Shown here piece after piece: positions 9,334 to 60,231 of a stretch of 64,000 bases of DNA. Source of the stretch: Sneathiella marina (lineage in GTDB: Bacteria > Pseudomonadota > Alphaproteobacteria > Sneathiellales > Sneathiellaceae). Where the stretch lies: contig NZ_CP098747.1 of NCBI RefSeq assembly GCF_023746535.1, positions 3,895,501 to 3,959,500 of the forward strand, written 5' to 3'. Position 1 is the stretch's first letter, and every line of letters begins with the position of its first letter. The translations under genes were made by a program, and so were the position numbers. The notes beneath the pieces are model-generated. The model saw only the letters and a list, made by a program, of their open reading frames with translations, was not told where the DNA came from and did no database searches.

Positions 9334-11436
9334 ATGTTTGAAGTACATCGCAAGGAAGTGATGTGGGGCGGTCGTCCGCTCGTATTGGAAACCGGTAAGA
9401 TTGCCCGCCAGGCTGATGGCGCTGTCATGATTACCTACGGAGGAACACAGGTTCTCTGTACGGCTGTTGCCGCAAGATCATTGAAGCCGGGCATGGATTT
9501 TTTCCCGCTCACGGTTAATTATCAGGAAAAAGCATATGCCGCAGGAAAAATCCCAGGCGGGTTTTTCAAGCGCGAAGCACGTCCCAGCGAAAAAGAAACG
9601 CTGACATCTCGTCTTATCGACCGGCCACTGCGTCCATCTTTTGTCAGTGGATTCAAAAACGAAACGCAGGTTATCTGTACGGTTGTTGCCCATGACATGG
9701 AAAATGACCCCGATGTTATCGCTCTTGTTGGCGCTTCTGCGGCTCTAACTATCTCTGGTATCCCGTTCCTGGGCCCTGTAGGGGCTGCCCGTGTTGCTTA
9801 TGTTGACGGTGACTATGTGTTGAACCCGACGTCAGAGCAGATGGAAAATACTGACCTGGACCTGGTGATCGCGGGAACATCAGAAGCCGTTTTGATGATT
9901 GAATCTGAAGCAAGCGAATTGAGCGAAGAACAGATGCTCGGCGCCGTGATGTACGGTCACCGTGAAATGCAGACAGTGATCGACGCGATAATTGACCTTG
10001 CAGAAGAATGCGCGAAAGAGCCTTGGGATTACTCGCCACCTGAAGACGATGCGGCACTGGTAGAAAAGTTGAAATCTGCCGCTGAATCCGGGCTGAAGGA
10101 AGCCTACAAGGAACAGGTCAAGCAAACCCGGACTGACAAGGTCTCTGATGCCAAGAAAGCGGCCCTGGAAGGACTTGAAGAAGATGAATTGGAAGCAGCA
10201 GGTGGCATTCTCAAGAAAATTGAGAAAAACATCGTGCGCGGTAACATTATCTCAACAGGAACCCGCATCGACGGCCGTGATACGAAAACTGTTCGTCCGA
10301 TTGTTTCCGAAGTTGGTCCGCTGCCCCGCAGCCATGGCTCCGCCTTGTTCACACGCGGAGAAACACAAGCCTTGGTCGTTGCCACATTGGGTACAGGCCA
10401 GGACGAGCAGATCATGGATGCGCTGGAAGGTGAATATCGCGAAAACTTCATGCTCCACTATAATTTCCCTCCTTACTCAGTTGGTGAAGTCGGGCGCATG
10501 GGGTTCACCGGTCGCCGGGAAGTCGGTCATGGCAAGCTTGCCTGGCGTGCCGTACATCCGTTGCTGCCGTCCAAGGATGTCTTCCCCTACACCCTTCGAG
10601 TTGTGTCTGAAGTGACGGAATCAAACGGTTCATCCTCAATGGCAACTGTATGTGGTACATCGCTGGCTTTGATGGATGCGGGTGTTCCGCTGAAACGGCC
10701 CGTTGCCGGTATCGCCATGGGTCTTATTTTGGAAGAAAGCGGTGAGTTCGCTGTTCTTTCCGATATTCTGGGTGATGAAGATCATCTGGGTGACATGGAT
10801 TTCAAGGTTGCCGGTACAAGCGAAGGTATTACCTCCTTGCAGATGGACATCAAGATTTCCGGTATCACCGAGGAAATCATGCGGATCGCTCTGGCGCAAG
10901 CAACAGAAGGTCGCAACCATATTCTTGACGAAATGGGCAAGGCTCTGGAATCTGCACGTGATGGTGTGCGTGATGGCGCCCCGCGGATTACGCAGTTGCA
11001 AGTCAAGAAAGACAAAATCCGTGATATCATTGGAACCGGCGGTAAGGTTATCCGCGAGATCTGTGAAGTCACGGGTGCGAAAATTGACATCGATGATGAT
11101 GGCACCGTGAAAGTTGCGGCCACGACAACCGAAAGTGCTGATGCCGCCATCAACTGGATCAAATCAATTGTTGATGATCCTGAAGTTGGCGTTATCTATA
11201 CAGGTAAAGTCGTGAAAGTTGTCGATTTTGGCGCCTTCGTTAATTTCTTTGGCAACCGTGACGGACTGGTTCATATTTCCGAGTTGGCACCGCAACGGGT
11301 GGCAAAAGTGACGGATATTGTCAATGAAGGCGACGAAGTGCGTGTTAAAGTGCTTGAAATCGACGGACGCGGTAAAGTTCGCCTGTCTATTAAAGCCGTC
11401 GCGGCAGAAGACGCCAAAGAGTCAGCAGAAGACTAA
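9334..11436 (+). CDS. pnp: Polyribonucleotide nucleotidyltransferase
   Basis: PNPase degrades RNA 3' to 5' phosphorolytically and is a degradosome component. The product has two RNase PH domains (the first opening with [19 protein letters not shown], the second around the RxDGRD motif [10 protein letters not shown]), a KH domain ([15 protein letters not shown]) and a C-terminal S1 domain. An upstream GTG at 9280 is in frame, but the ATG at 9334 is preferred because GGAAGGAAAG precedes it and MFEVHRKE is the usual PNPase N-terminus; this gives 700 residues. Confidence 0.96.
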
Positions 11437-43978: not shown

Positions 43979-44055
<77 letters not shown>

Positions 44056-46315: not shown

Positions 46316-47233
46316 TTAGTCCACCGGATTCGTACTGCTGTCCAAGAGTAAGCGTTTTTCCACTAATCGCATAAACACATCAATCGCTGGAATGTTTCTG
46401 CGTTCGCGAAGACAGGCAGCATATGAATTGGTCATAGGTGGTTGCGAGCGTATCCGGATGAGGGTCAATCTTTCGTCTGGCGAAAATTCTTCCATGGAAA
46501 TGATACCAGCACCCAATCCGGCGGCCACCGCCTCAACAACGGAATCACGCGACAGCTCCATGATCACATTCGGCTTTACGCTTTGCTCTTCCAGCTTTTC
46601 TTCAAGGGCACGGCGCGTCATTGACCCTTCCTCACGGAAGATCATCCGCTGCCCATCAAGTTCTTCAAGCGAAATAGTGCTTTTGGCCGCCCAATCGTGC
46701 GATTCGTCGACGATGATCGCAACTTCATGTGCGCCGAGGCGCAATTGTTCGAGTTTGTGATCGTCATATTTCCTTCCCAAAATCGCGACATCGAGTTCGT
46801 AATTCAGCAAGCGTTCGTATAATACTCCAGAATTACCACTGACGACGGAAACCTGAACCAGCGGAAATTTTTCAGAATAGTCGACCAGAAAGTCCATGAC
46901 AAAATAGGAGCCAACGGTGCCAATATGTAGCTTACCACCGTAACTATTGCCTGTTGAATCTAACAGACTGTGTGCATGTTCTTCCAAGGCAAAAATTTGC
47001 CGTGCGAGTTTCATTAAGGCAACCCCTGTATCCGTAAGGTGCAGTCCATTCGGCGAGCGGTCAAATAATTGGACATTAAACCGTTCTTCTAGCGCCTTGA
47101 CCTGTGTCGTCACGGTGGGTTGCCCGATGTTCAGCCACACCGCTGCCTTCGTGAAGCTCTGCACACGGCCGACTGCATAAAACGACCGCAGTTGGCTGAA
47201 ATTGATATATTTTAAGCGATCCGGGCTATGCAT
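46316..47233 (-). CDS. LysR-family regulator of the sugar/oxygenase operon
   Basis: The 305-residue product has an N-terminal winged helix (SFTKAAVWLNIGQPTVTTQV, then ALEERFNVQLFDR) and an effector-binding domain with an IGTVGSYFVMDFL segment. The ATG at 47233 is chosen because it overlaps the stop of the upstream hydrolase gene (ATGCATAG), a sign of translational coupling; the frame extends to 47257 within that gene. It is the last gene of the operon that starts at 58416 and is the natural candidate to control it. Inducer unknown. Confidence 0.87.
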   Translation of the reverse strand: MHSPDRLKYINFSQLRSFYAVGRVQSFTKAAVWLNIGQPTVTTQVKALEERFNVQLFDRSPNGLHLTDTGVALMKLARQIFALEEHAHSLLDSTGNSYGGKLHIGTVGSYFVMDFLVDYSEKFPLVQVSVVSGNSGVLYERLLNYELDVAILGRKYDDHKLEQLRLGAHEVAIIVDESHDWAAKSTISLEELDGQRMIFREEGSMTRRALEEKLEEQSVKPNVIMELSRDSVVEAVAAGLGAGIISMEEFSPDERLTLIRIRSQPPMTNSYAACLRERRNIPAIDVFMRLVEKRLLLDSSTNPVD

Positions 47234-48068
47234 TATTGACCTTTTCACAGGCACCACTGAGAACTTTCGATACTATACCAGAGATAATCGACCTTGGTTG
47301 CAGCAATTCCAGCAGGATAGAATAGTGATTTTCACCCGGCAAGGTTACCAGAGCCGATCCGTGTCGGTCGGCAGCCTGGTATTTATCAACCATAGCAGAA
47401 GATTGACGCAGATATTCTTTGGTTTCTGCCGAACCTACAATCGCGATCAGCTGTGTCTCTGCCGCAGGATACTCTAGCGGACTAGCGGATTTAGCCATGT
47501 CAGTATCCATTTTTAACAGGTGATTTACGGAAGTACCGAGCAGCGGAGAAAGATCAAACAAACCGCTGATCGGGACCAGCCCGGACAGCGGCATCACAGA
47601 GGCAGGCAACGCTGGTGCGGCACTCGCGGCCAGATGGCCGCCGGCAGAATGTCCTGTCAGAACCCAGCCTGACGGAGCGATACCGCTCCGATGCAATGCG
47701 TCAAAAATAGCCGCGATTGCCGCACCAATATGGATGATCATCGTTGCGATACCGACTTCGGGTGCAAGTGGATAACCCACCAAGGCAACACTGGAACCAT
47801 CTCGCAGGAATGGCGCCGCAACAAAGCTATACCGTTCTTTGTTATGGCTTTGCCAGTATCCGCCATGGACAAAAACCACCAGACCCTTGCCTGACTGACC
47901 GGGAAATAGATCAAACCGCGCCCTGGGATGCGCTCCATATGGCCGATCCAGTTGCGCCGCGCCTGCCGCACGTAAGGTGGCGCTTTCAGTATCAAAGCGT
48001 TCATAAATCTCTGACCGTTCAGGATATCGGTCACGAAATACGAATTCAGCTTCGAGGCGGTTGGTCAT
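47226..48068 (-). CDS. Alpha/beta hydrolase (HGGYW type, esterase/formamidase-like)
   Basis: The 280-residue product has the oxyanion motif HGGYW (about residues 69-73), the nucleophile elbow GHSAGG, and a C-terminal GENHYSIL segment with the histidine. The HGGYW motif is typical of kynurenine-formamidase-like and related esterases. It lies two bases from the alcohol dehydrogenase gene and overlaps the LysR start, so it is part of the operon. It would cleave an ester or amide produced or imported in the pathway; the substrate is not known. Confidence 0.83.
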   Translation of the reverse strand: MTNRLEAEFVFRDRYPERSEIYERFDTESATLRAAGAAQLDRPYGAHPRARFDLFPGQSGKGLVVFVHGGYWQSHNKERYSFVAAPFLRDGSSVALVGYPLAPEVGIATMIIHIGAAIAAIFDALHRSGIAPSGWVLTGHSAGGHLAASAAPALPASVMPLSGLVPISGLFDLSPLLGTSVNHLLKMDTDMAKSASPLEYPAAETQLIAIVGSAETKEYLRQSSAMVDKYQAADRHGSALVTLPGENHYSILLELLQPRSIISGIVSKVLSGACEKVNNA

Positions 48069-48070
48069 CT

Positions 48071-49180
48071 CTACTCAAAATCTATGATACTGCGCAAAGA
48101 CTGGCCCTTCCGCATCAAATCAAATCCACGATTTACGTCCTGCAACGGCATCCGGTGGGTTATTTGGGCATCCAGCTCGATCTCGCCCTCCATGAACAGA
48201 TCAATAAGGGGCGCAAGGCCTGAGCGGCCCTTTACGCCACCGAAATAGCTGCCGTGGATAGATTTCCCATAGCGCACGCCAACGGGCGCAAACTGCATTT
48301 CGCTGCCTGCAGGCTCGACGCCCAAAAGCACGGCCTGACCCCAACCCGGTACTGCGCTTTCGAACGCTTGCCGCATGACTGAGAGAATGCCGGAACATTC
48401 AAAAGCCACATCCACACCACCCAAGGTCAAATCGCGAATAGCGGTGACAGCATCCGCTGACGGATCGGATGCGTCGATGAAATCGGTCATGCCATAGTAT
48501 CGGCCCAAATCGATTTTATCGGGGTTGATATCAACACCAATGATCTGTTGTGCGCCGCAAATTCGCGCACCTTGGACAATGTTAATTCCGATGCCGCCCA
48601 GACCGAAGACAGCAACCTTATCCCCGTGCTTCACATGGGTCATCGCAGCACCAACGCCCGTCGTGACGCCGCAGCCGAACAAGCATATTTTGTCCAGCGG
48701 AGCATCTTTGCGGATCTTTGCAAGTGCGATCTCAGGGACAACTGTATAGCGCGACAAGGTCGACGTTCCCATGAAGTGATGCACCACAGCCCCGTTGCGG
48801 GAAAACCGCGCGGTTCCGTCGGGCATGACACCCATGTCGCGGGTCTTCTTAATGCTCCAGCAAAGGTTGGTGCGATTGGACTGACACATTGCGCAAGTCC
48901 CGCATTCAGGTCCGTAAAGCGGAATGACATGGTCCCCGGGCCTAAGGCTGCTCACGTCCGTGCCGACTTCAACAACGCGACCAACTCCTTCATGACCGGG
49001 GATCAAAGGATAAACCGTTGATGCATTGATCCCCTCGAGAGCTGTAAGGTCGGTATGGCACAAACCGCTGGATACAATCTCGATCAGCACTTCGCCGGAA
49101 CGCGGCGGTGCCACCAGAACCTGCGCCAGTTCAAGCGGCGTTTCGGGACCCGTACAGATAGCAGCGAGTGATTCAATCAT
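48071..49180 (-). CDS. Zinc-dependent alcohol dehydrogenase, class III-like but without the glutathione-site residues
   Basis: The 369-residue product aligns with class III alcohol dehydrogenase (glutathione-dependent formaldehyde dehydrogenase) over its whole length. Catalytic zinc ligands are C41, H63 and C170; structural zinc cysteines are C93, C96, C99, C107; the NAD fold is GLGGIG (193-198). By alignment from memory, the residues that bind the glutathione adduct in human class III (Asp55, Glu57, Arg115) are Asn, Ser and Lys here, so a different alcohol is the probable substrate. It overlaps the ferredoxin reductase gene by four bases. Confidence 0.87.
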   Translation of the reverse strand: MIESLAAICTGPETPLELAQVLVAPPRSGEVLIEIVSSGLCHTDLTALEGINASTVYPLIPGHEGVGRVVEVGTDVSSLRPGDHVIPLYGPECGTCAMCQSNRTNLCWSIKKTRDMGVMPDGTARFSRNGAVVHHFMGTSTLSRYTVVPEIALAKIRKDAPLDKICLFGCGVTTGVGAAMTHVKHGDKVAVFGLGGIGINIVQGARICGAQQIIGVDINPDKIDLGRYYGMTDFIDASDPSADAVTAIRDLTLGGVDVAFECSGILSVMRQAFESAVPGWGQAVLLGVEPAGSEMQFAPVGVRYGKSIHGSYFGGVKGRSGLAPLIDLFMEGEIELDAQITHRMPLQDVNRGFDLMRKGQSLRSIIDFE

Positions 49181-50427
49181 GACACCGGCACCGGCGACGC
49201 TGGTTGCACATGAATGGGTGCGAGGCTCATTTTTGCTAGAACTTTAGCAGTGATCGGGGCTTTCTTTTCCATGGCCGCACGCGCCCTGCGCAAATCACCG
49301 CCGCAATCCAACCCGACGGCGCCCAAAAGCATGTCTGCGTCAAGATAATAGGCGAGATATTTCGGATCACCCGGATTACCGCGCGCAAAAACCGTCGCCC
49401 CCTCTTGAAGTTGGCCAACGATTTGAATGTTATGTTCAAACTGATCTGTCCAAAACCATGGAACCTGATCGTAGGCACCATCTTGATCGCATAGCACATG
49501 CGCCACGACAGCGGCGGTGTCCTCCGCGTATTTCCAGCTCTCTAACCGCTGGGCTGTTCCGACGCGTTCGTCCAGCATATTCGCGATATCTCCGACCGCA
49601 TAGACGTCAGGGGCGCTTGTTTGGCATTTACGATTGACGACAATGCCATTGTCGATCTTCAGATCCGCCGCCTGGGCAAGTTCGATGTTCGGAATCCCAC
49701 CAATCCCAGTCACTACAAGATCGAATTCGAAGATTTGTCCGTCATCCAGGTTCAGCGTCGCTGCGCCTTTCTCCGATCTGGCATCTGCGATGGTCTTCGC
49801 GCACAAAAGAGAGATTCCGTGATTTCGGTGAAGTTGGACAAACCAATCCGACATCGTGCGGTTAAAAACCCTGCTCAATGGGCGCTCAGCCATTTCTATT
49901 ATGGTCACTTCCGCGCCCAGCGACCTGGCTGAGGCGGCAACTTCGAGGCCAATGAACCCTGCACCGATGATGCCCACCCGCGCACCTGGATTCAGATGCT
50001 CGCGCAACGCCATCGCATCGTCGTATGTGTGAAGTGTATAAACGTGTTCCTTTATTGCGCCGAGGTTTGGAATGCCGCGCGGTGTGAGGCCCATTGCAAG
50101 GACCAACTGAGTATAAGGAAGTACCCTACCGTCGGACAAATGAACCGACTTGGCCTGAATGTTGACGCTATCGCATGTGACTCCGCAGATAAGATTAACG
50201 TCCAATTCTTCCCAACGCTCAGCGGTCAGTAGTTCAGGCGTGGAACGCACGTTTAAATCTGTCAGCACTGCCTTGGACAGAGGAGGGCGCTCGTACGGCA
50301 AATGTGGCTCGCGACCAATGATTGTAATTGGCTCTTTGTACCCGAATACCCGCAAACGTTCAGCGGTGCGGCCCCCGGCATGTCCGCCGCCAACAATGAC
50401 AACTCCAGTTTCGTGCAGTATTTTCAT
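49177..50427 (-). CDS. FAD/NAD(P)H-dependent ferredoxin reductase
   Basis: The 416-residue product is a rubredoxin/ferredoxin reductase of the type that serves bacterial oxygenases. It has the FAD fold VIVGGGHAGGRTAERLR (about 10-26), PYERPPLSKAVL, the NAD fold GIIGAGFIGLEVAA near residue 150, the second FAD motif VYAVGDIANM, and a C-terminal reductase domain with WFWTDQFEHNIQIVG. It lies one base from the desaturase gene and overlaps the dehydrogenase gene. It most likely passes electrons from NAD(P)H to the Rieske ferredoxin encoded first in the operon. Confidence 0.9.
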   Translation of the reverse strand: MKILHETGVVIVGGGHAGGRTAERLRVFGYKEPITIIGREPHLPYERPPLSKAVLTDLNVRSTPELLTAERWEELDVNLICGVTCDSVNIQAKSVHLSDGRVLPYTQLVLAMGLTPRGIPNLGAIKEHVYTLHTYDDAMALREHLNPGARVGIIGAGFIGLEVAASARSLGAEVTIIEMAERPLSRVFNRTMSDWFVQLHRNHGISLLCAKTIADARSEKGAATLNLDDGQIFEFDLVVTGIGGIPNIELAQAADLKIDNGIVVNRKCQTSAPDVYAVGDIANMLDERVGTAQRLESWKYAEDTAAVVAHVLCDQDGAYDQVPWFWTDQFEHNIQIVGQLQEGATVFARGNPGDPKYLAYYLDADMLLGAVGLDCGGDLRRARAAMEKKAPITAKVLAKMSLAPIHVQPASPVPVS

Positions 50428-50428
50428 T

Positions 50429-51418
50429 TCAGTCGGTGCTCGATGAAGAGGAATTCTTGCGCAAGACTTTGGCTAGAATTTCGCGGTGAACGTTGATGTA
50501 ACCCTTTGTGACACATTCCAAATTAGGCACGACATGCTCATGGAGCTTCGCAAGGGCGTGAAAAGGCACTGAGGATGCAAGATGGTGTTCGGCGTGGTAG
50601 GGCATGTTCCAATAAAGCTGGCAGAGTATCGGATTTGCAAGGGTCGTGCGGGTGTTGGCCAGCAAATTGGGGCTTTCTTCGGTTCCAGTGTGTTCGGCCA
50701 TCCGGATCGAGCGCAAAACAGGTTCGCCTATGATGCGCGGGATCAGCCAATAGACAAGCACAAATGTGCTGGAAAAATAAATCGAAGCCACGATTACGGC
50801 AATGTAAAACAGAAGCTGAAGGCGAATTTCATTGGCCACCTGGCGGCGCACGGACTCTGGTAGAAAGGTCTTTTCGTCTTCGTTGAATCCGGCCACTGAG
50901 CCTCGCCAAAGAGTTCCGAACAGTTTTGGCCAGAATTCCGCACCAACAATCTGCGCCAGATAGTCACCAAAACTGTGCGGGAATGGCACGATGTCAGGGT
51001 CTCGGTCTTTGTGCTGAGTATAAGTGTGATGTGCGGCATGGCGATATTTGAAGTAAAGAAATGGCCGGAACGTTAGGGTGGCAATCACATAGCCCAATAG
51101 GTGGTTCAGCCAACGGGTTTTGAACGCAGTGCCATGTGAACATTCGTGCAGCGGGGCAAAGGTGAGAACGATCACCGTCCCATAGACTAGCATCGCCGGG
51201 ATTTGCAGCCACAGAGTTCCAGAAGTCACATACACCAAAAGGCCGCTAACGATCAGCGCCAAAACATGGACCACAAGGTAGAACAAGCCGGGGCCGTCGC
51301 TGCGTTTTCGCAGCTCCTTTAGCTTTTTGCGCGACACGACCTCTGGGCCCGTCAGTGGCCATATCTGACTGCCAACTCCACCAATGCCGGCATAACTGGC
51401 GGCGTTGTTTCCGGACAT
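50429..51418 (-). CDS. Membrane fatty-acid-desaturase-type di-iron oxygenase
   Basis: The 329-residue membrane protein has four to six hydrophobic segments and the three His boxes of the desaturase/hydroxylase superfamily: HECSH (91-95), HAAHH (127-131) and HAEHH (275-279), with an extra His in MAEHTG (about 243). These ligate the di-iron centre. The ATG at 51418 is supported by AGGAG six bases upstream. Its placement between a sugar importer and kinase on one side and a ferredoxin reductase on the other suggests it hydroxylates a small imported molecule rather than a lipid; that is inference. Confidence 0.87.
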   Translation of the reverse strand: MSGNNAASYAGIGGVGSQIWPLTGPEVVSRKKLKELRKRSDGPGLFYLVVHVLALIVSGLLVYVTSGTLWLQIPAMLVYGTVIVLTFAPLHECSHGTAFKTRWLNHLLGYVIATLTFRPFLYFKYRHAAHHTYTQHKDRDPDIVPFPHSFGDYLAQIVGAEFWPKLFGTLWRGSVAGFNEDEKTFLPESVRRQVANEIRLQLLFYIAVIVASIYFSSTFVLVYWLIPRIIGEPVLRSIRMAEHTGTEESPNLLANTRTTLANPILCQLYWNMPYHAEHHLASSVPFHALAKLHEHVVPNLECVTKGYINVHREILAKVLRKNSSSSSTD

Positions 51419-51505
51419 CTGATTCTCCTGTATTTTCAAGTTAAACCAGCCTTAAGCGATAGACATCTTCGTTGGAAATTCATTTTTTCAATTGCTCCAT
51501 TGCTG

Positions 51506-53002
51506 TCAGGCGAAAAAACATCGCGCTATTTCTTCTGTTGAAAAGTCCTTGCGCTCGAAGGAACCAGTGACACGGCCGCGCCCCATCACAATGATCCGAT
51601 CACAGACCTGGATCATCTCTTCAAGCTCGGTAGTCAGCACGATCACCGCCCGCTTCTCGTCGGCAAGAGATTGTATGTTGCGCCAGATTTCAACCTTCGC
51701 GCCAACATCGACCCCGCGGGTTGGATCCTCGGCAATAATGACATCGCTTTTGCGGGCAATCCATTTCCCGATGACGATCTTTTGCTGATTGCCTCCAGAC
51801 AATTGCGATACTCGCTGCGTCAGCGTGCTGACTTTGATCGCTAACAACTTGACCATCTGTGCGGTGGTTGATGCGAGTGAACGTTTTTGCAGGAATCCGA
51901 GCGTTTTAATGCGATCCAGAATAGCAAGCCCAAGATTGTCTGCAACGGCCATCCCAAGTACGAGCCCCTCGTGCTTTCGGTCTGCGGCCATGAAGGCAAC
52001 CCCGGCGTCAATCGCGTCTCGGGGAGCGCGGAAATGACAGGGCTTATCGTGGATGGTCAGAGATCCTGAATCGATGGACCTTACACCGAAAATAGACCTG
52101 ACCACGGCTTCGCGCTGGCAGCCTAGCAACCCTGCGATACCCAAGATTTCACCCTCACGCACTTCAAAGCTTACGTCTTGAAACAGGTTTTTGTGGCTTA
52201 TTGCCTCCGCCTTAAGCACTGTTTTACTCAAAGGACGATCCTGATGTGCCATTGCAGAGGACTTGTATTCTCGCCCGACCATAAGCGACACCAGTCGATC
52301 TTCGCTCATCCCTAGTGCCGGTTCTGTCGAGACCACCTGCCCATCCCGCAGAATGGTAATGCGATCTGATATTTCCAACACTTCAGCGAGCCGGTGCGAC
52401 ACATAAACAACCGCTATTCCGCGTTCTTTTAAGTCGATGATGATATCCAGAAGGTGACGAACTTGGTCATCATTCAGCGATGCCGTGGGTTCATCAAAAA
52501 CGATGACCTTGGGGTCGGCGGCGAGTGCCCTGCAAATTTCGACAATTTGCTGTTCGTTCAGGCTTAATGAAGCTAGCTTCTGTTCGGGATCGATTGCAAC
52601 TTGAAGCCGGGACAGCAGAATGCGTGCATCGCTGTTCATGCGGGCCTTATTGTTTAGACCCCCCTTGCGCGTTGGTTCGCGGCCAAGATAGATGTTTTCA
52701 GCGACCGTCATATTGGCGCATAAAACCAGTTCCTGATGAACCATTGACAAGCGGCGTGCGATCGCCTCTGCCGGGGATTTGATGACAGCGAGGGCGCCAT
52801 CCAGATAAATGGCTCCTTCGCTTGGCGCTTGCAGGCCGTTAATACAGGACAACAACGTGGATTTACCTGCGCCGTTTTCGCCCACAAGGCTGTGCACTTC
52901 TCCGGCACGCAAATCAAAACTGACTTTTGACAATGCGATAACACCGGGGAAGCGCTTGGTGAGCCCGCGGACTTCAAGCAATGGGACCTGACCCGTCACC
53001 AC
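51506..53002 (-). CDS. Sugar ABC transporter ATP-binding protein (RbsA/XylG type)
   Basis: The 498-residue product contains two fused ABC domains, as in ribose- and xylose-type importers. The first has Walker A GENGAGKST (41-49), signature LSLNEQQIVEICRAL and Walker B VIVFDEP. The second has the usual degenerate Walker A (GLLGCQREAV) and an intact signature LSGGNQQKIVIGKW. The GTG start overlaps the kinase stop by one base (TAGTG). It pairs with the two permeases and binding protein upstream. Confidence 0.93.
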   Translation of the reverse strand: MVTGQVPLLEVRGLTKRFPGVIALSKVSFDLRAGEVHSLVGENGAGKSTLLSCINGLQAPSEGAIYLDGALAVIKSPAEAIARRLSMVHQELVLCANMTVAENIYLGREPTRKGGLNNKARMNSDARILLSRLQVAIDPEQKLASLSLNEQQIVEICRALAADPKVIVFDEPTASLNDDQVRHLLDIIIDLKERGIAVVYVSHRLAEVLEISDRITILRDGQVVSTEPALGMSEDRLVSLMVGREYKSSAMAHQDRPLSKTVLKAEAISHKNLFQDVSFEVREGEILGIAGLLGCQREAVVRSIFGVRSIDSGSLTIHDKPCHFRAPRDAIDAGVAFMAADRKHEGLVLGMAVADNLGLAILDRIKTLGFLQKRSLASTTAQMVKLLAIKVSTLTQRVSQLSGGNQQKIVIGKWIARKSDVIIAEDPTRGVDVGAKVEIWRNIQSLADEKRAVIVLTTELEEMIQVCDRIIVMGRGRVTGSFERKDFSTEEIARCFFA

Positions 53003-54549
53003 TAAGATCCATATCGCTTAAGAAAATCCCGATGCCGATCCATGTCATCTTTCAGGTTTTGATACACGGATAACCAAATTTCAAAGAATTCGGCATATCG
53101 TTTATGGGCTTCTGGATCAGGGTCAATCGTCTCTTTGATGCTCACAATCTGGTTGAGCGGAGCTGTTGGGTCATCGTAGATGCCTGCAGCAACCCCCGCC
53201 AAGATGGCGTCGCCTATGGGTGCTGCCTCGCCGATGTCAGGAACTTTCAAGGGTCGGTTGACAACGTTTGCCGTGATCTGGTTCCACAGGCGGCTCTTGG
53301 TTGGGCCTCCGTTCAAGACCAAATTATCAATCTGCGCGCCAGCACTTTCAGCAATGCGGAAGTTGGACAGCAGATCGAACGCGACACCTTCGATCAGCGC
53401 CCGGATCATAGTCTCGCGCCCGGTTGTTGGTTGAACACCAAAGAATACGCCTGTGGCATTGCTGTTCCAGTTCGGTGCCAGCGAGTTGCCCAGATACGGT
53501 AAATACATCAGACCATTTGAACAGGGCGGAATCTGACGGGCTTGTTCCGTAAACAGGTCGAACACATTACCCGCCATACGGTCGGCGATGCGGCTTTCGG
53601 ATTGGCCAAAATGATCCCGGTACCATTTCAGCGAGGCTCCGGTAAACGCCATCGGTGCATCAAACATTGTCAAACCCGGCAGGACATGTGGCCATTTCAG
53701 AATTCGAAATTCATCCAAGGTCTGTTCGGTCGGGATCATGATGCCGATGTTTGATCCGGTACCCATCGAATAAAAGGCTTCACCCGCTTTTGTCACACCG
53801 ACACCAAGGGCGGCAGAGCTGATATCCGTACCACCGGCCGCAACGATTGTGCCAACGCGCAAGCCGGTTTCCTCGGCGGCTTTTTGGGTGACTTCACCGA
53901 CCTGCTCATGAGAGTGGAACAGCTTGGGAAATTTGTCGATCGGAATACCGATGGCGTCAGCGACTTGTTCGTTCCAACGCTCTTTCTGGTATTCAAAAGC
54001 GTAAGCAAGGCCCGCGTCGCCCATATTCATGGTGAAGTTTCCGCAAAGACGGAAGGTACAATAGCCCGAAGGGGAAAGAAATTTGTGCGTTGCATCAAAC
54101 GTATGAGGTTCGTGTTTCTTGATCCACAGCGCCTTGGGGTCGATAAACCATGGCGCTACCCGGTTGCCATTGTTGCGATTGATAACGCCTTCTCCGATGG
54201 TCGCACGAATGTCGCTACATTCTTCTTCCGAACGGGAATCCATCCAGATCATTGCCCGGCGCAATGGCTTGCCTTTGTCGTTTACAGGAAGGGTCACACC
54301 CACAAGTCCAGAGAGGGCTACTCCGGCAATGTCTGCCGCAAAGTTCCCTTGTTCCAGGCACTGCCGGATCGCCGAGACGACAGCGCTCCAATAGTTGTCC
54401 GCATCCTGCTCGGCCCAACCAGGATGTGGGTGAAATAACGGGTGCTCCTGTGAACCGAAAGCAACGATTTTGCCACTCTGCGTATCCAGAATTGAGGCCT
54501 TTACGTTCGTGGTGCCGATGTCTACACCAAGTGTCAGATGTCCAGCCAT
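53002..54549 (-). CDS. FGGY-family carbohydrate kinase (xylulokinase-like)
   Basis: The 515-residue product is a two-domain sugar kinase: N-terminal GVDIGTTNVKASI, the WMDSRSEEE segment, the GGTDISSAALGVG region and a C-terminal ATP-binding domain with VLNGGPTKSRLWNQI and the GDAILAGVAAG motif. The family phosphorylates pentuloses, glycerol and polyols; the exact substrate cannot be named. It lies between permease and ATPase genes, so it acts on the imported sugar or polyol. Confidence 0.9.
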   Translation of the reverse strand: MAGHLTLGVDIGTTNVKASILDTQSGKIVAFGSQEHPLFHPHPGWAEQDADNYWSAVVSAIRQCLEQGNFAADIAGVALSGLVGVTLPVNDKGKPLRRAMIWMDSRSEEECSDIRATIGEGVINRNNGNRVAPWFIDPKALWIKKHEPHTFDATHKFLSPSGYCTFRLCGNFTMNMGDAGLAYAFEYQKERWNEQVADAIGIPIDKFPKLFHSHEQVGEVTQKAAEETGLRVGTIVAAGGTDISSAALGVGVTKAGEAFYSMGTGSNIGIMIPTEQTLDEFRILKWPHVLPGLTMFDAPMAFTGASLKWYRDHFGQSESRIADRMAGNVFDLFTEQARQIPPCSNGLMYLPYLGNSLAPNWNSNATGVFFGVQPTTGRETMIRALIEGVAFDLLSNFRIAESAGAQIDNLVLNGGPTKSRLWNQITANVVNRPLKVPDIGEAAPIGDAILAGVAAGIYDDPTAPLNQIVSIKETIDPDPEAHKRYAEFFEIWLSVYQNLKDDMDRHRDFLKRYGS

Positions 54550-54571
54550 TCAGTTTTCCTCCCAGATTTAC

Positions 54572-55600
54572 TTATTCTTGTTTCATTCGCTGTTGGATAC
54601 TTGAGATGCCCACAGCTACGATCAGCACTAGGCCGATGATCAAATTCTGATACGACGTGCTCACGCCCCAAAGCCCAAACAAATTAAGGCCCAAAGCAAA
54701 CAACACGGTGGCTAGAAATGTCCGCCAGGGCGATCCGATGCCCCCGGCAAGGGACACACCGCCAATGACTGCAATCGCAATCGCCGTTAGCTCGTACCCG
54801 CCGCCCAATGGCGCCTCGACAGATTTGAGCCGTGCCGTCAGCACGATGCCGGCCAACGCTGCGCACCCTCCGCTAATTGCAAACGCAGCCACTACATAAC
54901 GTGCCGTCTTGATGCCGGCGTACATGGCGGCGATTTCGTTGCCACCAATCGCGTAGAAACGGCTTCCAGCAACGGTTCCCTTCAAAAGCAAAAGCATCAC
55001 GGTCAGTGCGGCGAGAAAGATCAAAAACCCGGTGGGCATGCCAAGGTAAACGGTATCTCCGATCCAATCGAAGGTCGCGCCCTTAAGATAGAAAGGTGCG
55101 CCATTGGTAAAAATGTAGCTCAGGCCGCGCAAGGCGGTCAGCATCACCAGTGTCATGATAAATGACGCAACCTTGAGGTAGGCCACGCCAATGCCGTTAA
55201 GGATCCCGACGCCGATCCCTGTCAACAAAGTGATGACGATAGCCAGTACAGGCGGGCCGACAAACGAATTTCCGCGGACGATCCAGCGCTCGTCCAACAC
55301 TGCCCCAATCTGCGTCGTTATCGCGACGCCAACAATCACGGAGAACACCATTGTCGCGGCAACCGACAGATCGATCCGCCCAGTTAACAGCACCATTGTC
55401 ATGCCCAACGAGAGCAATCCGATGGCCGCTGAATTGCGAATTGTATTCGCAAGGTTTAAAGGTGTCAGGAAATAGGGCGAGGTGATGATACCGACGATAA
55501 AAGCCATCACGATCAACCAGATCAGAGGATCTTTAAGCAGCCTCAAGATGGAACGGGACGTTGTCGAAGCTTGTGCAGCCAGATCAGTTTCAGCGCTCAT
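54572..55600 (-). CDS. Sugar ABC transporter permease (RbsC type)
   Basis: The 342-residue membrane protein has about nine to ten predicted helices and the BPD_transp_2 pattern: SLGMTMVLLTGRIDLSVAAT in the first third and AIGGNEIAAMYAGIKTARYV with VIGGVSLAGG later. It overlaps the second permease gene by four bases, and the two should form the heteromeric membrane channel. Confidence 0.92.
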   Translation of the reverse strand: MSAETDLAAQASTTSRSILRLLKDPLIWLIVMAFIVGIITSPYFLTPLNLANTIRNSAAIGLLSLGMTMVLLTGRIDLSVAATMVFSVIVGVAITTQIGAVLDERWIVRGNSFVGPPVLAIVITLLTGIGVGILNGIGVAYLKVASFIMTLVMLTALRGLSYIFTNGAPFYLKGATFDWIGDTVYLGMPTGFLIFLAALTVMLLLLKGTVAGSRFYAIGGNEIAAMYAGIKTARYVVAAFAISGGCAALAGIVLTARLKSVEAPLGGGYELTAIAIAVIGGVSLAGGIGSPWRTFLATVLFALGLNLFGLWGVSTSYQNLIIGLVLIVAVGISSIQQRMKQE

Positions 55601-56592
55601 TTAGCCACCTGCCGCTGTCTGATACCAGGGACAACTACGGCCAGGATGATCAGCGCGGTCACGACCTGTTGCAGATAGATGCTGACACCTAGTTGATTGA
55701 GCAAACTGTTGATCACACCGATAATCATCGCCGCCAGCAATGTTCCCAGAATTGTGCCGGATCCTCCGGCAAGGGCCGCCCCGCCCAGCACCGTGATTGC
55801 CAGCACCCGCAGCTCCATGCCGGGATAGGCGGCTGGGTTGATATAGGACAGGCGCGCACTTTCCAGAATTCCTGCAACCGCCGCCAAGACACCGCAGATC
55901 ATGAAGGTCACGACCTTGACTTGTCCTGTGCGGATACCTGACAGCGTCGCTGCGGCCGCATTTCCACCAGTGGCATACAGTTTGACCCCGAAGGCTGTAT
56001 ATCTCGTTAATATTATGGCCAAGATCGCCGCCAGAAGCAGCGTCAATATCGGGACGGGAACGCCCCACACCTCGCCCCTGCCCAACCATAGATACCCTGG
56101 TAAGTTGTCCGGGTAGGCGGCCTGACCGCTGGATACGGTGTTCGCCAGCGCGCGGGCAATTCCGAGCATAGCCAGCGTGGCAATTAGGGACGGGATGCCG
56201 ATCCAGACAACAAGTAAGCCGTTCAAAAACCCAAGCAACAAACCAACAGCAAGCACAGCTGAGACAACAACAAACGCTGAGCCAGTATCAAAAAGTGTCG
56301 CACCAACAATGCCAGATAACACCGCTGTGCCTGCGACCGAAAGGTCAATTTCGCCAGAAATGATAACCAATGTCATCCCTAAAGCGACAACGGTCGTACC
56401 GGCGACCGCCAATAAGATGACCTTGAAATTTTCCAATGAAAAGAATGACGAAGAAACCAGCGTGCCGACTGCTACAAGCGCAATCAAAACCGCAGCCAGC
56501 GAAAGTATTGAAGCGTTCTGCTGCCAAAGGTGGTTCATCGATATGCCACCGGAGCTGTTTATGTTCGCGCCGTTACTGTCGGAATTTTTCAT
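55597..56592 (-). CDS. Sugar ABC transporter permease (RbsC type), second subunit
   Basis: The 331-residue membrane protein has the same pattern as its neighbour: ALGMTLVIISGEIDLSVAGT, then ATGGNAAAATLSGIRTGQVK and VLGGAALAGGSGT. A polar 25-residue N-terminus precedes the first membrane segment. Having two different permease genes is typical of importers where both subunits are needed. Confidence 0.92.
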   Translation of the reverse strand: MKNSDSNGANINSSGGISMNHLWQQNASILSLAAVLIALVAVGTLVSSSFFSLENFKVILLAVAGTTVVALGMTLVIISGEIDLSVAGTAVLSGIVGATLFDTGSAFVVVSAVLAVGLLLGFLNGLLVVWIGIPSLIATLAMLGIARALANTVSSGQAAYPDNLPGYLWLGRGEVWGVPVPILTLLLAAILAIILTRYTAFGVKLYATGGNAAAATLSGIRTGQVKVVTFMICGVLAAVAGILESARLSYINPAAYPGMELRVLAITVLGGAALAGGSGTILGTLLAAMIIGVINSLLNQLGVSIYLQQVVTALIILAVVVPGIRQRQVAK

Positions 56593-56639
56593 CGTTCGTG
56601 GGCCTCGTAAGAGAAATCGACATGGCCGTCCCGATTGTA

Positions 56640-56673
56640 TGACATGCAGCGCCCCGAAGTACGCTGCATGTCA
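56640..56673 (-). promoter_or_regulatory. 12-bp perfect stem-loop between binding protein and permease genes
   Basis: TGACATGCAGCG and its exact reverse complement (56640-56651 and 56662-56673) flank a 10-base loop in the 107-base gap after the binding protein gene. No T-tract follows on the minus strand, so it is more likely an RNA-stabilising or processing hairpin that keeps binding-protein mRNA above permease mRNA, as in other ABC importer operons. Confidence 0.75.
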
Positions 56674-56699
56674 GTTTTCGAAACGACGCCTTACAAAGG

Positions 56700-58001
56700 T
56701 TACTCTGCCTTAGGCCCATATGCATATAGCCATTGGTCAGGTGTGACGGTTTTAACACCCTCTATGTCCATTGCTTCTTTGGTGATCATTGGCAGGTTTG
56801 GCGTCATGATCAGTTTCGGAGGTGCTTCGTTCAAGCCCTCTTTGGCGCCAATGTGCTGGATGACCGCTCGGATACCGATATCACCGATTAGTGGCGTGTA
56901 TGGTGCAACCATATCGATATTGCCATCTGCAATTTCCTTGAGCACCTCTTTGGAATCATCATTTGCAAGAATGACAATTTTACCGCCACCGGGCGCACTG
57001 TTCAGCCGACCGGCTTCGCGGATCGCGTCAAGGGCTCCGATGGCTTCTTCACCACCAGTGTTAAAAGAAACGCTGACGTCGTCAATACCTTGTAGTGCAT
57101 CTGCCGTCGCTTTGAACGCAAGTGTCCGCTGGCTTTTCGTGTGATAGTTTCCGGCAACCTCATAACCACCTTCGTTACCAATCGCCTCCAGAAATCCACC
57201 CGTCCGAATTGAGTCAGCCGTTGAGCCAAGGTCTTTGCGGTTCAAGATAATTTTACCGCCATCACTGATCTGTTTTAAGAACAACCCTTGCTGCAAGCCA
57301 TTTGCGTAGAAATTACCAAGCACCTCAGAGCTGATCTTCTCAGAAGATGTCCGACGGTCAAGGCTGACAACCGGGATGCCGGCCGCAATTGCGCGGTCGA
57401 CTGGTGGTCCCATCGGTGCTTCGCGTGCGGGCCACAAAACAATGCCGTCATATTGTTGCGCAATCCAGGTATCGATGACCTGCCCCATCTTGTTGTCATC
57501 AAATTCGGCATCAATCACCTCGAATTCAATGTTCGGATGGCGTGCGGCTTCCCATGCAGCTGTGTCAGCAAGACTTATCAGCCAAGGATGATTGAACCCG
57601 TGGAAGACAAAACCGATCCGATATGTCTTGGAAGGATCAAGCACGGGGCCTTCAGGCATCGGTAAATAATCGGTGAATGGTGCCTTGATCTCTAGTTTAC
57701 TATAGGGACCGGTAAAGGTCGCACCCATTCCGGGCTCCCAAATAAATCCGCCGGCCAGATCGCCGACAGGATAGGCATCCAAATAATCACGAAAACCGTC
57801 ACGCCCAAACAAATCTGAAACATCGTCATTGGACATGCCTGTGCGCGCCGCATCAGAATATTTACCGATCAAACCATTGAGAACTGTATGCACCGAAGAG
57901 TCATCAGCAGCCGCAGGCAACGCCCAGGTGCCTGATAAAAACGGTGTGACTGCAAACGCCAATGCGCCCAGCAGAAGATTTCGTTTGTTAAAGGTTATCA
58001 T
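56700..58001 (-). CDS. Periplasmic sugar-binding protein of the ABC importer
   Basis: The 433-residue product has an N-terminal signal peptide (about 1-32, hydrophobic core LLLGALAFAVTPFL, cleavage near PAAADD) and a type I periplasmic-binding fold from about residue 108: YRIGFVFHGFNHPWLISLAD, YDGIVLWPAREAP, GIPVVSLDRR. Length exceeds the usual 310-340 because of a 75-residue insert before the domain. Ligand cannot be named from sequence. Confidence 0.9.
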   Translation of the reverse strand: MITFNKRNLLLGALAFAVTPFLSGTWALPAAADDSSVHTVLNGLIGKYSDAARTGMSNDDVSDLFGRDGFRDYLDAYPVGDLAGGFIWEPGMGATFTGPYSKLEIKAPFTDYLPMPEGPVLDPSKTYRIGFVFHGFNHPWLISLADTAAWEAARHPNIEFEVIDAEFDDNKMGQVIDTWIAQQYDGIVLWPAREAPMGPPVDRAIAAGIPVVSLDRRTSSEKISSEVLGNFYANGLQQGLFLKQISDGGKIILNRKDLGSTADSIRTGGFLEAIGNEGGYEVAGNYHTKSQRTLAFKATADALQGIDDVSVSFNTGGEEAIGALDAIREAGRLNSAPGGGKIVILANDDSKEVLKEIADGNIDMVAPYTPLIGDIGIRAVIQHIGAKEGLNEAPPKLIMTPNLPMITKEAMDIEGVKTVTPDQWLYAYGPKAE

Positions 58002-58077
58002 TAGTAATTCCTCCCATGTTGTTAATAATTCATGCGCCGCCGCGTTTGTTATTGCGAAAACCCGACCGCCTGATCAT

Positions 58078-58416
58078 TCAATTTTCGACAAAAACGTAGA
58101 TGTGTCCTTCCTCAACCTTTGTCTTGAACGTCTTCAAAGCGATTGTCACCGGCGGGGACAAAGGTCGCCCTGTGCGTATGTTGAAGATGCCCTGATGAAG
58201 CGGGCATTCCACAGTGCCATCGGCCACGTATCCTTCGGACAGGAAAGCATGTTCGTGAGAGCAAATACCGCCGGTCGCGAGATACTCATTGTCTACGTTA
58301 TAGACAGCGATGCATTGACCTTCATAGTCGAACCTGTCCGCATCGTCGGGCTCAAGTTCACTCGCAGCCATCGCCTTAACCCAAATCCCTCTACTAAGGT
58401 CTTGATCTTTTGCCAT
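58078..58416 (-). CDS. Rieske [2Fe-2S] ferredoxin
   Basis: The 112-residue soluble protein has the Rieske ligands C52-x-H54 in GICSHEH and C71-x2-H74 in ECPLHQG, as in the ferredoxins of aromatic ring dioxygenases and related systems. No ring dioxygenase is encoded nearby; the only oxygenase in the operon is the membrane desaturase-type enzyme, with the matching reductase next to it. It is the first gene of the operon, 76 bases before the binding protein. Confidence 0.92.
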   Translation of the reverse strand: MAKDQDLSRGIWVKAMAASELEPDDADRFDYEGQCIAVYNVDNEYLATGGICSHEHAFLSEGYVADGTVECPLHQGIFNIRTGRPLSPPVTIALKTFKTKVEEGHIYVFVEN

Positions 58417-58872: not shown

Positions 58873-60231
58873 TTATCCCTGCTCGATCTCGGATATTTCT
58901 TGTACGACTTCTGCCTCGATCATCTCTTGTACTTGCGGCCCACGATCGGCCGTGCGCCAAGTAAAGCTGTCAAACTGTCCGCAAGCGGTACAATGGGACT
59001 CCCAAATCTCTTCCTGGCGACCGCAGGAATTACAGATCCAGAGCGGGTCCTGTGGTGCGGCAGCACTTTTCAATATCCATTCTCTCGCCGCAATTGCATC
59101 TGCATTTGCTTTCTCTTCAAGTTCCGCCAGCAAATAATACATACTCGCAGCCGGTGCTTTATCGATCGCCTTCATAAGATGCTCGCGAGCCGGCCCCCAG
59201 TCCCGAGACGCGAGAGCAGCTTTCGCCAACATTAAATGAGTTTCCAGGTGATCAGGATTGTTTACCGCCACCGTTTGCTGGGCCCGTCGAAACCAATCGG
59301 GTGGTTGCTCCCCGGACTGAATGGTTCGAATAGCTTCGGCGAGGTCCCGATGCGGTGCTTTCTTCCAACTGTCCGCGACTAGTTTGGAGAGCTTGCGAGG
59401 TGATTCCATCTTCGCCGTTAAATTAACAGCGAGAATCGCTGCGGGGACGAAAGTCGGATCCAGGTCATGTGACGTAATTGCCAATGACAAGGCATCGGCC
59501 TCTTGACCTTTATTTTTGAGTGCCAGTGCCCGCTCATATGAGATAACAGATTTCGCTCGAACAACCGCTGCCCCCTTCGCAGCTTTGCCGCGTGTCATGC
59601 GCGACAACGTTCGGTCGGCCATTTCCCAATTACGGGTTTCAACAGCAAGTTCGTAAAGTTCCTTGAGAACCCATGCGGTTCCAGGTCGCAACTCGTCCGC
59701 GCGCTTCGCCAGGGAAATTGCTTTCTCCGGATCGGTTTCCTTACGCGCGCGATTGATTAAACCGCGCAAACCCAGAAATTCCGTATCGTCTCGTTCAATC
59801 ATTCGATCATAATAAATTCGAGCAGCTCGATCATCCTCATTGAGTTCGGCTGCTTGCGCCGCCAGTAACAATGTCATCGGCTCCCCGGAAAGATGTTTCT
59901 CTGCTTCGATCGCCTGACGGCGCGCTTCGATGGCGTCTCCAGCCGCAATGGCGACCATGCCACTGGACAAAGCTTCCAGTCCTTTTTCGCGCCGACGTGC
60001 GGTGAAAACGGCGCCGATCCGCCCGGGCCCTCGCTTCATCCATACCCAAAAGCGATACAAGAACGCAACAATTACCGCGAACACAAGAGTGAGAGCAGCA
60101 ACTACAACGATAGATGTCTCGACCACATAGCCGCCCCAAGTTAGCTGTACCGTCCCGGGATAATCCGCAAGCCATACAGCTGCGAAAGCAAGAAACGCAA
60201 GAACCACAAAAAAGAAAATTGAACGTGTCAT
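58873..60231 (-). CDS. hemY: HemY-domain tetratricopeptide membrane protein
   Basis: The 452-residue product has two N-terminal membrane helices (about 3-22 and 40-62) as in HemY proteins of proteobacterial heme operons, followed by TPR-like helical repeats, and ends with a zinc ribbon formed by WICNSCGRQ and HCTACGQFD before an acidic tail. The function of HemY is not settled; proteins with TPRs plus a terminal zinc ribbon recall LapB. It lies ten bases downstream of the hemD-mic60 gene, so the two are cotranscribed. Confidence 0.87.
   Translation of the reverse strand: MTRSIFFFVVLAFLAFAAVWLADYPGTVQLTWGGYVVETSIVVVAALTLVFAVIVAFLYRFWVWMKRGPGRIGAVFTARRREKGLEALSSGMVAIAAGDAIEARRQAIEAEKHLSGEPMTLLLAAQAAELNEDDRAARIYYDRMIERDDTEFLGLRGLINRARKETDPEKAISLAKRADELRPGTAWVLKELYELAVETRNWEMADRTLSRMTRGKAAKGAAVVRAKSVISYERALALKNKGQEADALSLAITSHDLDPTFVPAAILAVNLTAKMESPRKLSKLVADSWKKAPHRDLAEAIRTIQSGEQPPDWFRRAQQTVAVNNPDHLETHLMLAKAALASRDWGPAREHLMKAIDKAPAASMYYLLAELEEKANADAIAAREWILKSAAAPQDPLWICNSCGRQEEIWESHCTACGQFDSFTWRTADRGPQVQEMIEAEVVQEISEIEQG

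Follow-up and report, generated by a model that had tools for sequence, protein, structure and literature searches.

Why should genes for sugar import and phosphorylation stand in one line with a desaturase-type oxygenase and its electron carriers? The question is raised by eleven open reading frames (ORFs), all on the minus strand, at 46316-58416 of a 64,000-nucleotide stretch of the Sneathiella marina genome (contig NZ_CP098747.1, positions 3,895,501 to 3,959,500 of the forward strand; hereafter the window). Our answer, held with moderate confidence, is that they form a cassette through which the cell uses a methylated monosaccharide or polyol, most likely an O-methyl compound, which would be demethylated, its methyl carbon ending in formate, and phosphorylated by the kinase. 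Demethylation itself, for which the grounds are gene context, we regard as likely. Plants, algae and the surfaces of bacteria contain methylated sugars and cyclitols, and to our knowledge few routes for their demethylation have been described; the cassette is compact and seems equipped for the entire task. The argument draws on gene content, on conservation of the unit, on the placement of the oxygenase among MocD-type enzymes, and on the presence of a PanB-like gene where, in one natural variant, an alcohol dehydrogenase (ADH) and a hydrolase are missing, all of them read from sequence.

The genes and their layout

Families were assigned by Pfam and NCBIfam profile searches. These agree with an earlier note, made from the letters of the window, on the number of ORFs, their strand, their coordinates and their families, which are as follows.

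58078..58416, minus strand: MocE-like Rieske [2Fe-2S] ferredoxin (PF00355, 65 bits; best NCBIfam model TIGR02377, the MocE family)
56700..58001, minus strand: RbsB-type (Peripla_BP_4) sugar-binding protein (PF13407, 3e-36, residues 129-387)
55597..56592, minus strand: RbsC-type ATP-binding cassette (ABC) permease 1 (PF02653, BPD_transp_2)
54572..55600, minus strand: RbsC-type ABC permease 2 (PF02653, BPD_transp_2; 4-base overlap with permease 1)
53002..54549, minus strand: FGGY carbohydrate kinase (PF00370/PF02782; nearest NCBIfam model xylulokinase, TIGR01312)
51506..53002, minus strand: RbsA/AraG-type double ABC ATPase (PF00005, two stretches)
50429..51418 (listed ORF from 51439), minus strand: membrane di-iron desaturase-superfamily oxygenase, MocD-type (PF00487, 8e-39; histidine boxes; tree position)
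49177..50427, minus strand: flavin adenine dinucleotide (FAD)-dependent ferredoxin reductase, MocF/HcaD-type (PF07992 and PF14759)
48071..49180, minus strand: class-III-like zinc ADH, proposed hemiacetal dehydrogenase (TIGR02818, 440.7 bits)
47226..48068, minus strand: HGGYW alpha/beta hydrolase, esterase/formamidase-like, proposed formyl-ester hydrolase (BD-FAE/Abhydrolase_3; PDB matches)
46316..47257, minus strand: LysR-type regulator (PF03466/PF00126)

Read from the Rieske gene to the LysR gene, the intergenic distances are 76, 107, -4, 22, -1, 66, 1, -4, 2 and -32 bases, and the last overlap shrinks from 32 to 8 bases with the alternative start ATG 47233. With that start the overlaps are of 4, 1, 4 and 8 bases, within the range of one to eight that the earlier note had given. 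Comparison with orthologues suggests that the desaturase starts at ATG 51418 and not at TTG 51439. Scans for promoter-like sites (16 observed; 11.1, standard deviation 3.6, in shuffled sequences) and terminator-like sites (15 observed; 14.4, standard deviation 3.1) were uninformative, and that the eleven genes are co-transcribed is therefore something we infer.

Conservation of the eleven genes

Seven other loci (L055-L061) carry all eleven genes in identical order and strand (7/7). Besides the window genome, the hosts are Sinorhizobium, Mesorhizobium and two metagenome-assembled genomes, L056 and L061 being from two strains of one species, S. terangae. A tblastn search of 72,556 plasmids with the desaturase gave two cassette records above 60% identity, both from Sinorhizobium, with the next-best match at 40%; a scan of genome contigs with two short desaturase peptide patterns gave five further cassette loci, along with a spurious one (L062) which held no cassette gene and was dropped. 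Because the scan used two short patterns, other copies of the cassette were likely missed. Identity to the window among the seven orthologues is highest in the kinase (82-88%) and stands at 77-81% for the binding protein, 69-79% for the desaturase, 70-75% for the ADH, 59-66% for the Rieske ferredoxin, 43-52% for the reductase and 41-45% for the hydrolase. The LysR gene is kept in 7/7 of these loci and in a variant locus, L140, described below.

When flanking ORFs of at least 90 residues were compared at E 1e-15 across the window and six loci (L056 left out), only L055 and L060 had any in common. The flanks thus differ mostly between loci, and what is conserved is the eleven genes; judged by their order, they form one co-inherited unit, which bears out the earlier note's proposal of a joint system. 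The cassette is real, conserved and spread over several alphaproteobacterial lineages.

All seven of the other cassettes were found through the desaturase, a bias towards complete units that has to be set against this result, and searches starting from the kinase or the binding protein are a fairer test of completeness. Among the plasmids, kinases and binding proteins above 60% identity were confined to the two cassette records, the next best being kinases of at most 35% and binding proteins of 29%. Across 385 genomes of the class, the kinase was matched at 1e-90 only in the window genome, and the binding protein at 1e-25 only there and in genome G308, as a 44% relative. Across 398 genomes of the phylum, the kinase at 1e-80 had three matches, namely the window genome, the Mesorhizobium of L059 and genome G697; the desaturase-reductase-Rieske triad lies beside the kinase in 3/3, and G697, which holds L140, is alone in being a new locus. 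Kinase relatives of at least 76% identity were found only beside an oxygenase. The earlier note had named, as one finding that would speak against a coupling, transporter and kinase genes standing without the oxygenase in nearly all related genomes; binding proteins and kinases of at least 60% identity occurred only beside it. That a sugar-type importer and kinase are coupled to a desaturase-type oxygenase, with an electron chain of its own, stands as that note described it.

The kinase scores 339.5 bits against the xylulokinase model TIGR01312 (cut-off 380.25) and falls under every curated cut-off listed, for which reason a plain xylulokinase was rejected. Between signal sequence and Peripla_BP_4 domain, the binding protein carries some 95 conserved residues that match no Pfam family. 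Neither an aldolase nor an isomerase was found among the eleven genes with Pfam and NCBIfam, so that the kinase product should feed directly into central metabolism. Modelling the desaturase and the binding protein from 6-row alignments gave no usable structure (mean predicted local distance difference test scores, pLDDT, of 40.0 and 40.9).

In G308 the 44% relative of the binding protein (L134:6301-11317) immediately precedes a hybrid histidine kinase of 1231 residues that weakly matches a Cache domain, an arrangement which suggests that a similar ligand is sensed there; the neighbourhood is uninformative on the ligand of the cassette. Two weaker plasmid relatives (29% and 28%) sit in other sugar-transport clusters.

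The oxygenase and its MocD-type relatives

The histidine boxes of the desaturase are invariant, and the C-x-H and C-x2-H ligands of the Rieske ferredoxin are kept, in 8/8 cassettes. In the window the desaturase and reductase genes are adjacent and the Rieske gene is at the opposite end of the operon; in L140 all three are adjacent. No PDB sequence matched the desaturase at E up to 1. The eight cassette enzymes group as a single clade (100/100) in a tree of 57 desaturases, and this clade is nested in a 16-row one (100/97) together with all five homologues that adjoin a Rieske gene and three others. A second tree of 29 rows has the same outline, with the join of L140 and the cassette at 88/91 and long branches flagged. 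By these trees the cassette desaturase falls in a clade with MocD-type enzymes. Among them, the Rhizobium johnstonii desaturase is called MocD-like because a 93.6% relative is so annotated and a MocE-family gene comes after it.

On a Ruegeria plasmid (L064:520-20855), a desaturase and Rieske pair (9914-11179) lies beside amino-acid ABC transport genes, with sarcosine oxidase and trimethylamine methyltransferase-family genes in the vicinity; this is possibly an N-demethylation version. Taken with a betaine-type neighbour at locus L100, to which we return, the amino-acid transport genes imply that MocD-type enzymes may use several kinds of substrate.

The alcohol dehydrogenase and the hydrolase

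The cassette ADH, like the other seven (425.5-469.8 bits), does not pass the cut-off of 543.95 bits of TIGR02818 (adh_III). Its nearest enzymes in the PDB are of class III. Positions Asp55, Glu57 and Arg115, which we take to be glutathione-binding residues, are Asn, Ser and Lys in 8/8 cassette ADHs; the window genome's own model-passing glutathione enzyme keeps Asp, Glu and Arg there. Elsewhere in the window genome, a true glutathione (GSH)-formaldehyde dehydrogenase (634 bits) adjoins an S-formylglutathione hydrolase (435 bits). A model-passing GSH-formaldehyde dehydrogenase is present in 6/7 of the other cassette genomes or plasmids, and the seventh, G408, has no TIGR02818 match over the cut-off and, besides the cassette ADH, a partial match of 316.8 bits. 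That the cassette ADH is the housekeeping formaldehyde dehydrogenase was rejected on its score and on the separate genomic copy. The window genome also holds five iron-type ADH matches over the cut-off.

These observations bear on an explanation which keeps demethylation and lets the hemiacetal collapse to free formaldehyde, the ADH and hydrolase then being a second, thiol-dependent module of the FrmA/FghA kind. The kinship of the ADH with class III enzymes points that way, as does the pairing of a dehydrogenase with a hydrolase, which mirrors FrmA/FghA. However, scores below the cut-off and three altered glutathione-site positions in all eight cassettes, a true FrmA/FghA pair already present in the window genome, and an FghA model that matches only another genomic locus and not the cassette hydrolase make it unlikely.

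The best PDB matches of the hydrolase are a 'Lipase 1' (9n8r, 1.2e-34) and a putative esterase (2pbl, 4.1e-31), followed in third place by a kynurenine formamidase (4e11, 1.6e-12); its best NCBIfam model, hormone-sensitive lipase, falls below its cut-off. The HGG-x-W motif and GHSAGGH nucleophile elbow of kynurenine formamidase-like hydrolases are invariant in 8/8 cassette hydrolases and are found also in the better-matching lipase and esterase. Seven plasmid records match the hydrolase. Two were opened besides the cassettes: in one, four genes and 3.8 kb separate the relative (31%) from kynU; in the other, the relative lies beside salicylyl-CoA hydroxylase genes in an aromatic-CoA region.

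A variant locus and the PanB-like genes

Evidence on what these two enzymes act upon comes from L140. On one strand it carries the binding protein (71%), permeases, kinase (76%), ATPase and LysR genes, and on the divergent strand the desaturase (45%), reductase and Rieske genes and a PanB-family gene. Within the 19.9 kb fetched, nothing matched the cassette ADH or hydrolase; in the window and L055-L061, no PanB-like gene was found. As this one related locus keeps importer, kinase and triad but shows a PanB-like gene and nothing resembling the ADH and hydrolase in the stretch fetched, the methyl carbon is a likelier target of those two enzymes than the sugar is. A cytochrome P450, an Fer2 ferredoxin and a TRAP transporter are encoded next to the variant locus (L140:614-5187) and may make up a further system for oxidative uptake.

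The PanB-like protein of L140 scores 92 bits where the panB model needs 272, and the one encoded after the triad in R. johnstonii 132 bits; six such proteins (from L140, L063, L146, L147, L148 and L149) span 82-132 bits. With scores so far under the panB cut-off, the name ketopantoate hydroxymethyltransferase is probably wrong for all six. PanB-like genes occur also in L100 and L022. Used as a query, the L140 protein matched 274 plasmid records, and from the 60 of these that were listed, eight loci were hand-picked for different organisms. A desaturase-superfamily gene lies in the same-strand run in 8/8 (five of MocD type, three of the sterol-desaturase kind), and in 14/14 when six further loci, to which the desaturase had led in five cases and the kinase in one, are included. 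The run also holds a Rieske gene in 10/14, a reductase gene in 9/14, and purU and/or folD in 4/14 (L146:5983-8611, L150:5995-8608, L151:6007-11287 and L145:5992-7839). The run reads desaturase, Rieske, reductase, PanB-like, purU, folD in both A. tumefaciens HAMBI 105 and M. huakuii, and the PurU and FolD of L146 score above their model cut-offs. In Marivivens the PanB-like set precedes genes for a regulator, a TIM-barrel protein, a sugar ABC importer and an inositol dehydrogenase.

A sterol-desaturase-family partner takes the place of the MocD-type one at L149:5995-10541, L151:6007-9428 and L147:5998-7907, and in L149 and L151 it is accompanied by Rieske and reductase genes. By family assignment, the oxygenase too is exchanged in these three loci.

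Methylene-tetrahydrofolate is the substrate of PanB and is oxidised by FolD, and PurU yields formate. From this chemistry, the slot after the oxygenase probably handles carbon at the level of formaldehyde, as a demethylase would release, which is to say the methyl carbon. Both gene sets, PanB-like with FolD and PurU on the one hand and ADH with hydrolase on the other, could end in formate, and genes annotated as panB that share a run with a desaturase may serve to capture one-carbon units. We tentatively extend this to the idea that desaturase-type demethylases carry exchangeable modules by which the hemiacetal gives up its methyl carbon with no free formaldehyde being released. One form would use a PanB-like protein that does not make pantoate: the protein would transfer the hydroxymethyl group to tetrahydrofolate, after which FolD and PurU would convert it to formate; in the other, that of the present cassette, the ADH would make a formate ester from the sugar hemiacetal and the alpha/beta hydrolase would free formate.

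A further scheme, along the lines of the earlier note, instead places the ADH and hydrolase on the sugar side: the oxygenase would attack the sugar itself at a C-H bond, or else a larger alkyl ether or glycoside, the ADH would act on the resulting alcohol, an ester would be hydrolysed and the sugar phosphorylated. Gene content by itself is compatible with this scheme, and the best matches of the hydrolase are a lipase and an esterase. However, L140 has in place of the two genes a member of a family found here with one-carbon folate genes, which favours the methyl carbon and leaves the earlier scheme quite improbable.

The proposed pathway and the evidence against it

On the reading we prefer, demethylation of an imported sugar, the RbsB-type protein and ABC importer would bring in the methylated sugar or polyol. 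Electrons would pass from NADH through the FAD reductase and the Rieske ferredoxin to the MocD-type membrane di-iron oxygenase, which would hydroxylate the methyl group (R-O-CH3 to R-O-CH2OH). The class-III-like ADH would oxidise this hemiacetal to a formate ester (R-O-CHO), the alpha/beta hydrolase would release formate and the free sugar, and the FGGY kinase would phosphorylate the latter. A hemiacetal dehydrogenase with a formyl-ester hydrolase is the natural reading of the gene pair by analogy, although we put the hemiacetal and formate-ester route at somewhat short of an even chance; the oxidation of free formaldehyde, the other way from methyl group to formate, we consider doubtful.

Several observations pull in the other direction. 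Firstly, the exchange of ADH and hydrolase for a PanB-like gene was seen in one variant, L140, in a search that covered its 19.9 kb only; a short-chain dehydrogenase lies on the other strand about 0.5 kb past its PanB-like gene, and the PanB-like loci L141-L143 showed no Rieske or reductase gene in 17 kb. Secondly, the ADH could instead act on the sugar, and the hydrolase is matched better by the lipase and putative esterase than by the formamidase, while its poor conservation (41-45%) would fit a generic esterase. Thirdly, the kinship with MocDEF has its limits: the Rieske protein scores 98.7 bits against TIGR02377 in the window and 109.6 in L055, below the cut-off of 136.15, and the MocD comparison is with rhizobial proteins that either carry a MocD-like annotation or are encoded next to MocE-family genes.

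Homologues adjoining a Rieske gene are, moreover, a minority (5/49 desaturase loci, with a reductase seen in two). The 49 loci were read to different lengths: about 10-12 kb for three plasmid loci, up to about 7 kb a side for 19 and up to about 1.5 kb for 27. That 44/49 lack an adjacent Rieske gene in the stretch read, and that Pfam classes the fold as fatty acid desaturase, would be expected if the desaturase worked on membrane lipids and the importer and kinase on an unrelated sugar, the two being mere neighbours. Such an arrangement would hardly keep an eleven-gene order in eight loci with mostly different flanks, or place the triad beside the kinase in 3/3 kinase-first matches, and we consider it very improbable.

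The methyl group may instead sit on nitrogen, or the substrate may be an amino sugar resembling rhizopine or betaine, in which case the triad would N-demethylate or hydroxylate it. The triad of L100 adjoins a glycine-betaine-type (OpuAC) binding protein, the desaturase is weakly like the arginine hydroxylase GntB (54.5 bits of 380), and the binding protein is weakly like the rhizopine-binding model (45.3 bits of 420), though RbsB is slightly higher (51.5 of 337). An FGGY kinase and an RbsABC-type importer point to a sugar or polyol, however, and there is no aminotransferase or deaminase among the eleven genes, so that a nitrogenous substrate appears improbable. The natural variant L140 gives a direct test of the role of the extra ADH and hydrolase.

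Probable acquisition by the window genome

In 10/10 congener stretches fetched, a tRNA-Thr gene follows the counterpart of window gene 58873-60231, as it does in the window, and blastn over the 1 to 12.8 kb lying further on in these ten stretches found no part of the operon. Among 23 congeners, several of them incomplete genomes, the best desaturase match was 40%. Because of this patchy distribution we infer that the operon was acquired by the window genome. Its guanine-cytosine content (0.527) is the same as that of its surroundings (0.521), so that the operon does not look foreign by composition. The final 45 bases of a tRNA-Arg(ccg) gene (window 44011-44055) are repeated exactly near the tRNA-Thr of a congener (L126:3386-3430), resembling the attachment site of a mobile element.

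Comparison with known systems

Neither a description of this cassette nor an account of PanB-like genes with demethylases was found in the literature searched, in which subscription journals are thinly covered. The oxygenase module is known in kind from MocDEF; its joining with an importer, FGGY kinase, ADH and hydrolase, and the exchange of modules, were not found in print. The earlier note's statement that no described pathway has this gene set accordingly holds for the combination and fails for the triad, which has a known counterpart. MocDEF presumably removes the O-methyl group of rhizopine (3-O-methyl-scyllo-inosamine). In the available text of the papers concerned, it is the ferredoxin-oxygenase complex of rhizopine catabolism in rhizobia (PMC10107442, PMC5132102), and rhizopine is taken up via a sugar-type binding protein (PMC10107442). 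The likeness lies in one gene set holding a desaturase-type MocD, a Rieske MocE and an FAD reductase MocF. In contrast, mocA, mocB, mocC and mocR have no counterpart by family among the eleven genes, the regulator is of the LysR type, an FGGY kinase, an importer of its own, an ADH and a hydrolase are added, and the desaturase is 33% identical to the MocD-like enzyme of R. johnstonii.

With RbsABC uptake and FGGY kinases of the xylulose, ribulose and autoinducer-2 (AI-2) type, the cassette shares importer architecture and kinase family; it differs in a kinase below the curated cut-offs, an attached oxygenase module and the lack of an isomerase or aldolase. A chemical precedent is offered by the degradation of methyl tert-butyl ether (MTBE), whose monooxygenase we take to be an AlkB-type oxygenase. 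The sources available in part for Methylibium name an MTBE monooxygenase, a hydroxymethyl tert-butyl ether dehydrogenase and a tert-butyl formate carboxylesterase (PMC4517660, PMC2847961), so that a methyl ether passes through a monooxygenase, a hemiacetal dehydrogenase and a formate-ester hydrolase. As far as those sources go, it differs in using rubredoxin rather than a Rieske protein, in locus tags that run over two series, and in acting on a synthetic ether rather than a sugar.

The earlier note had also drawn a parallel with P450 demethylation of methyl-galactose, and this extends to the ADH and esterase. In the clusters for 6-O-methyl-D-galactose of marine Flavobacteriia, the accessible text places the oxygenase, its redox partners, a zinc ADH and an esterase together (PMC10033563). 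As in the cassette, a zinc ADH and an esterase-like gene stand beside the oxygenase, a likeness judged by gene family. The oxygenase is a P450 where the cassette has a PF00487 membrane di-iron enzyme, and the loci, as far as that text describes them, are polysaccharide loci with SusC/SusD in which an FGGY kinase and an RbsABC importer are not mentioned (PMC10033563). The words hemiacetal and formate ester are absent from its main text. The same text places the ADH outside the network clusters that hold most glutathione enzymes, and reports that it showed no activity on the methyl sugar or with formaldehyde plus thiols, a further point to be entered against our reading; a knockout of the ADH nevertheless grows poorly (PMC10033563). 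If correct, an ADH module acting on the hemiacetal would also explain why the ADH is required for methyl-galactose use by the P450 system, and the puzzle of a marine enzyme that is needed and yet showed no activity on these substrates (PMC10033563) becomes testable with a hemiacetal substrate.

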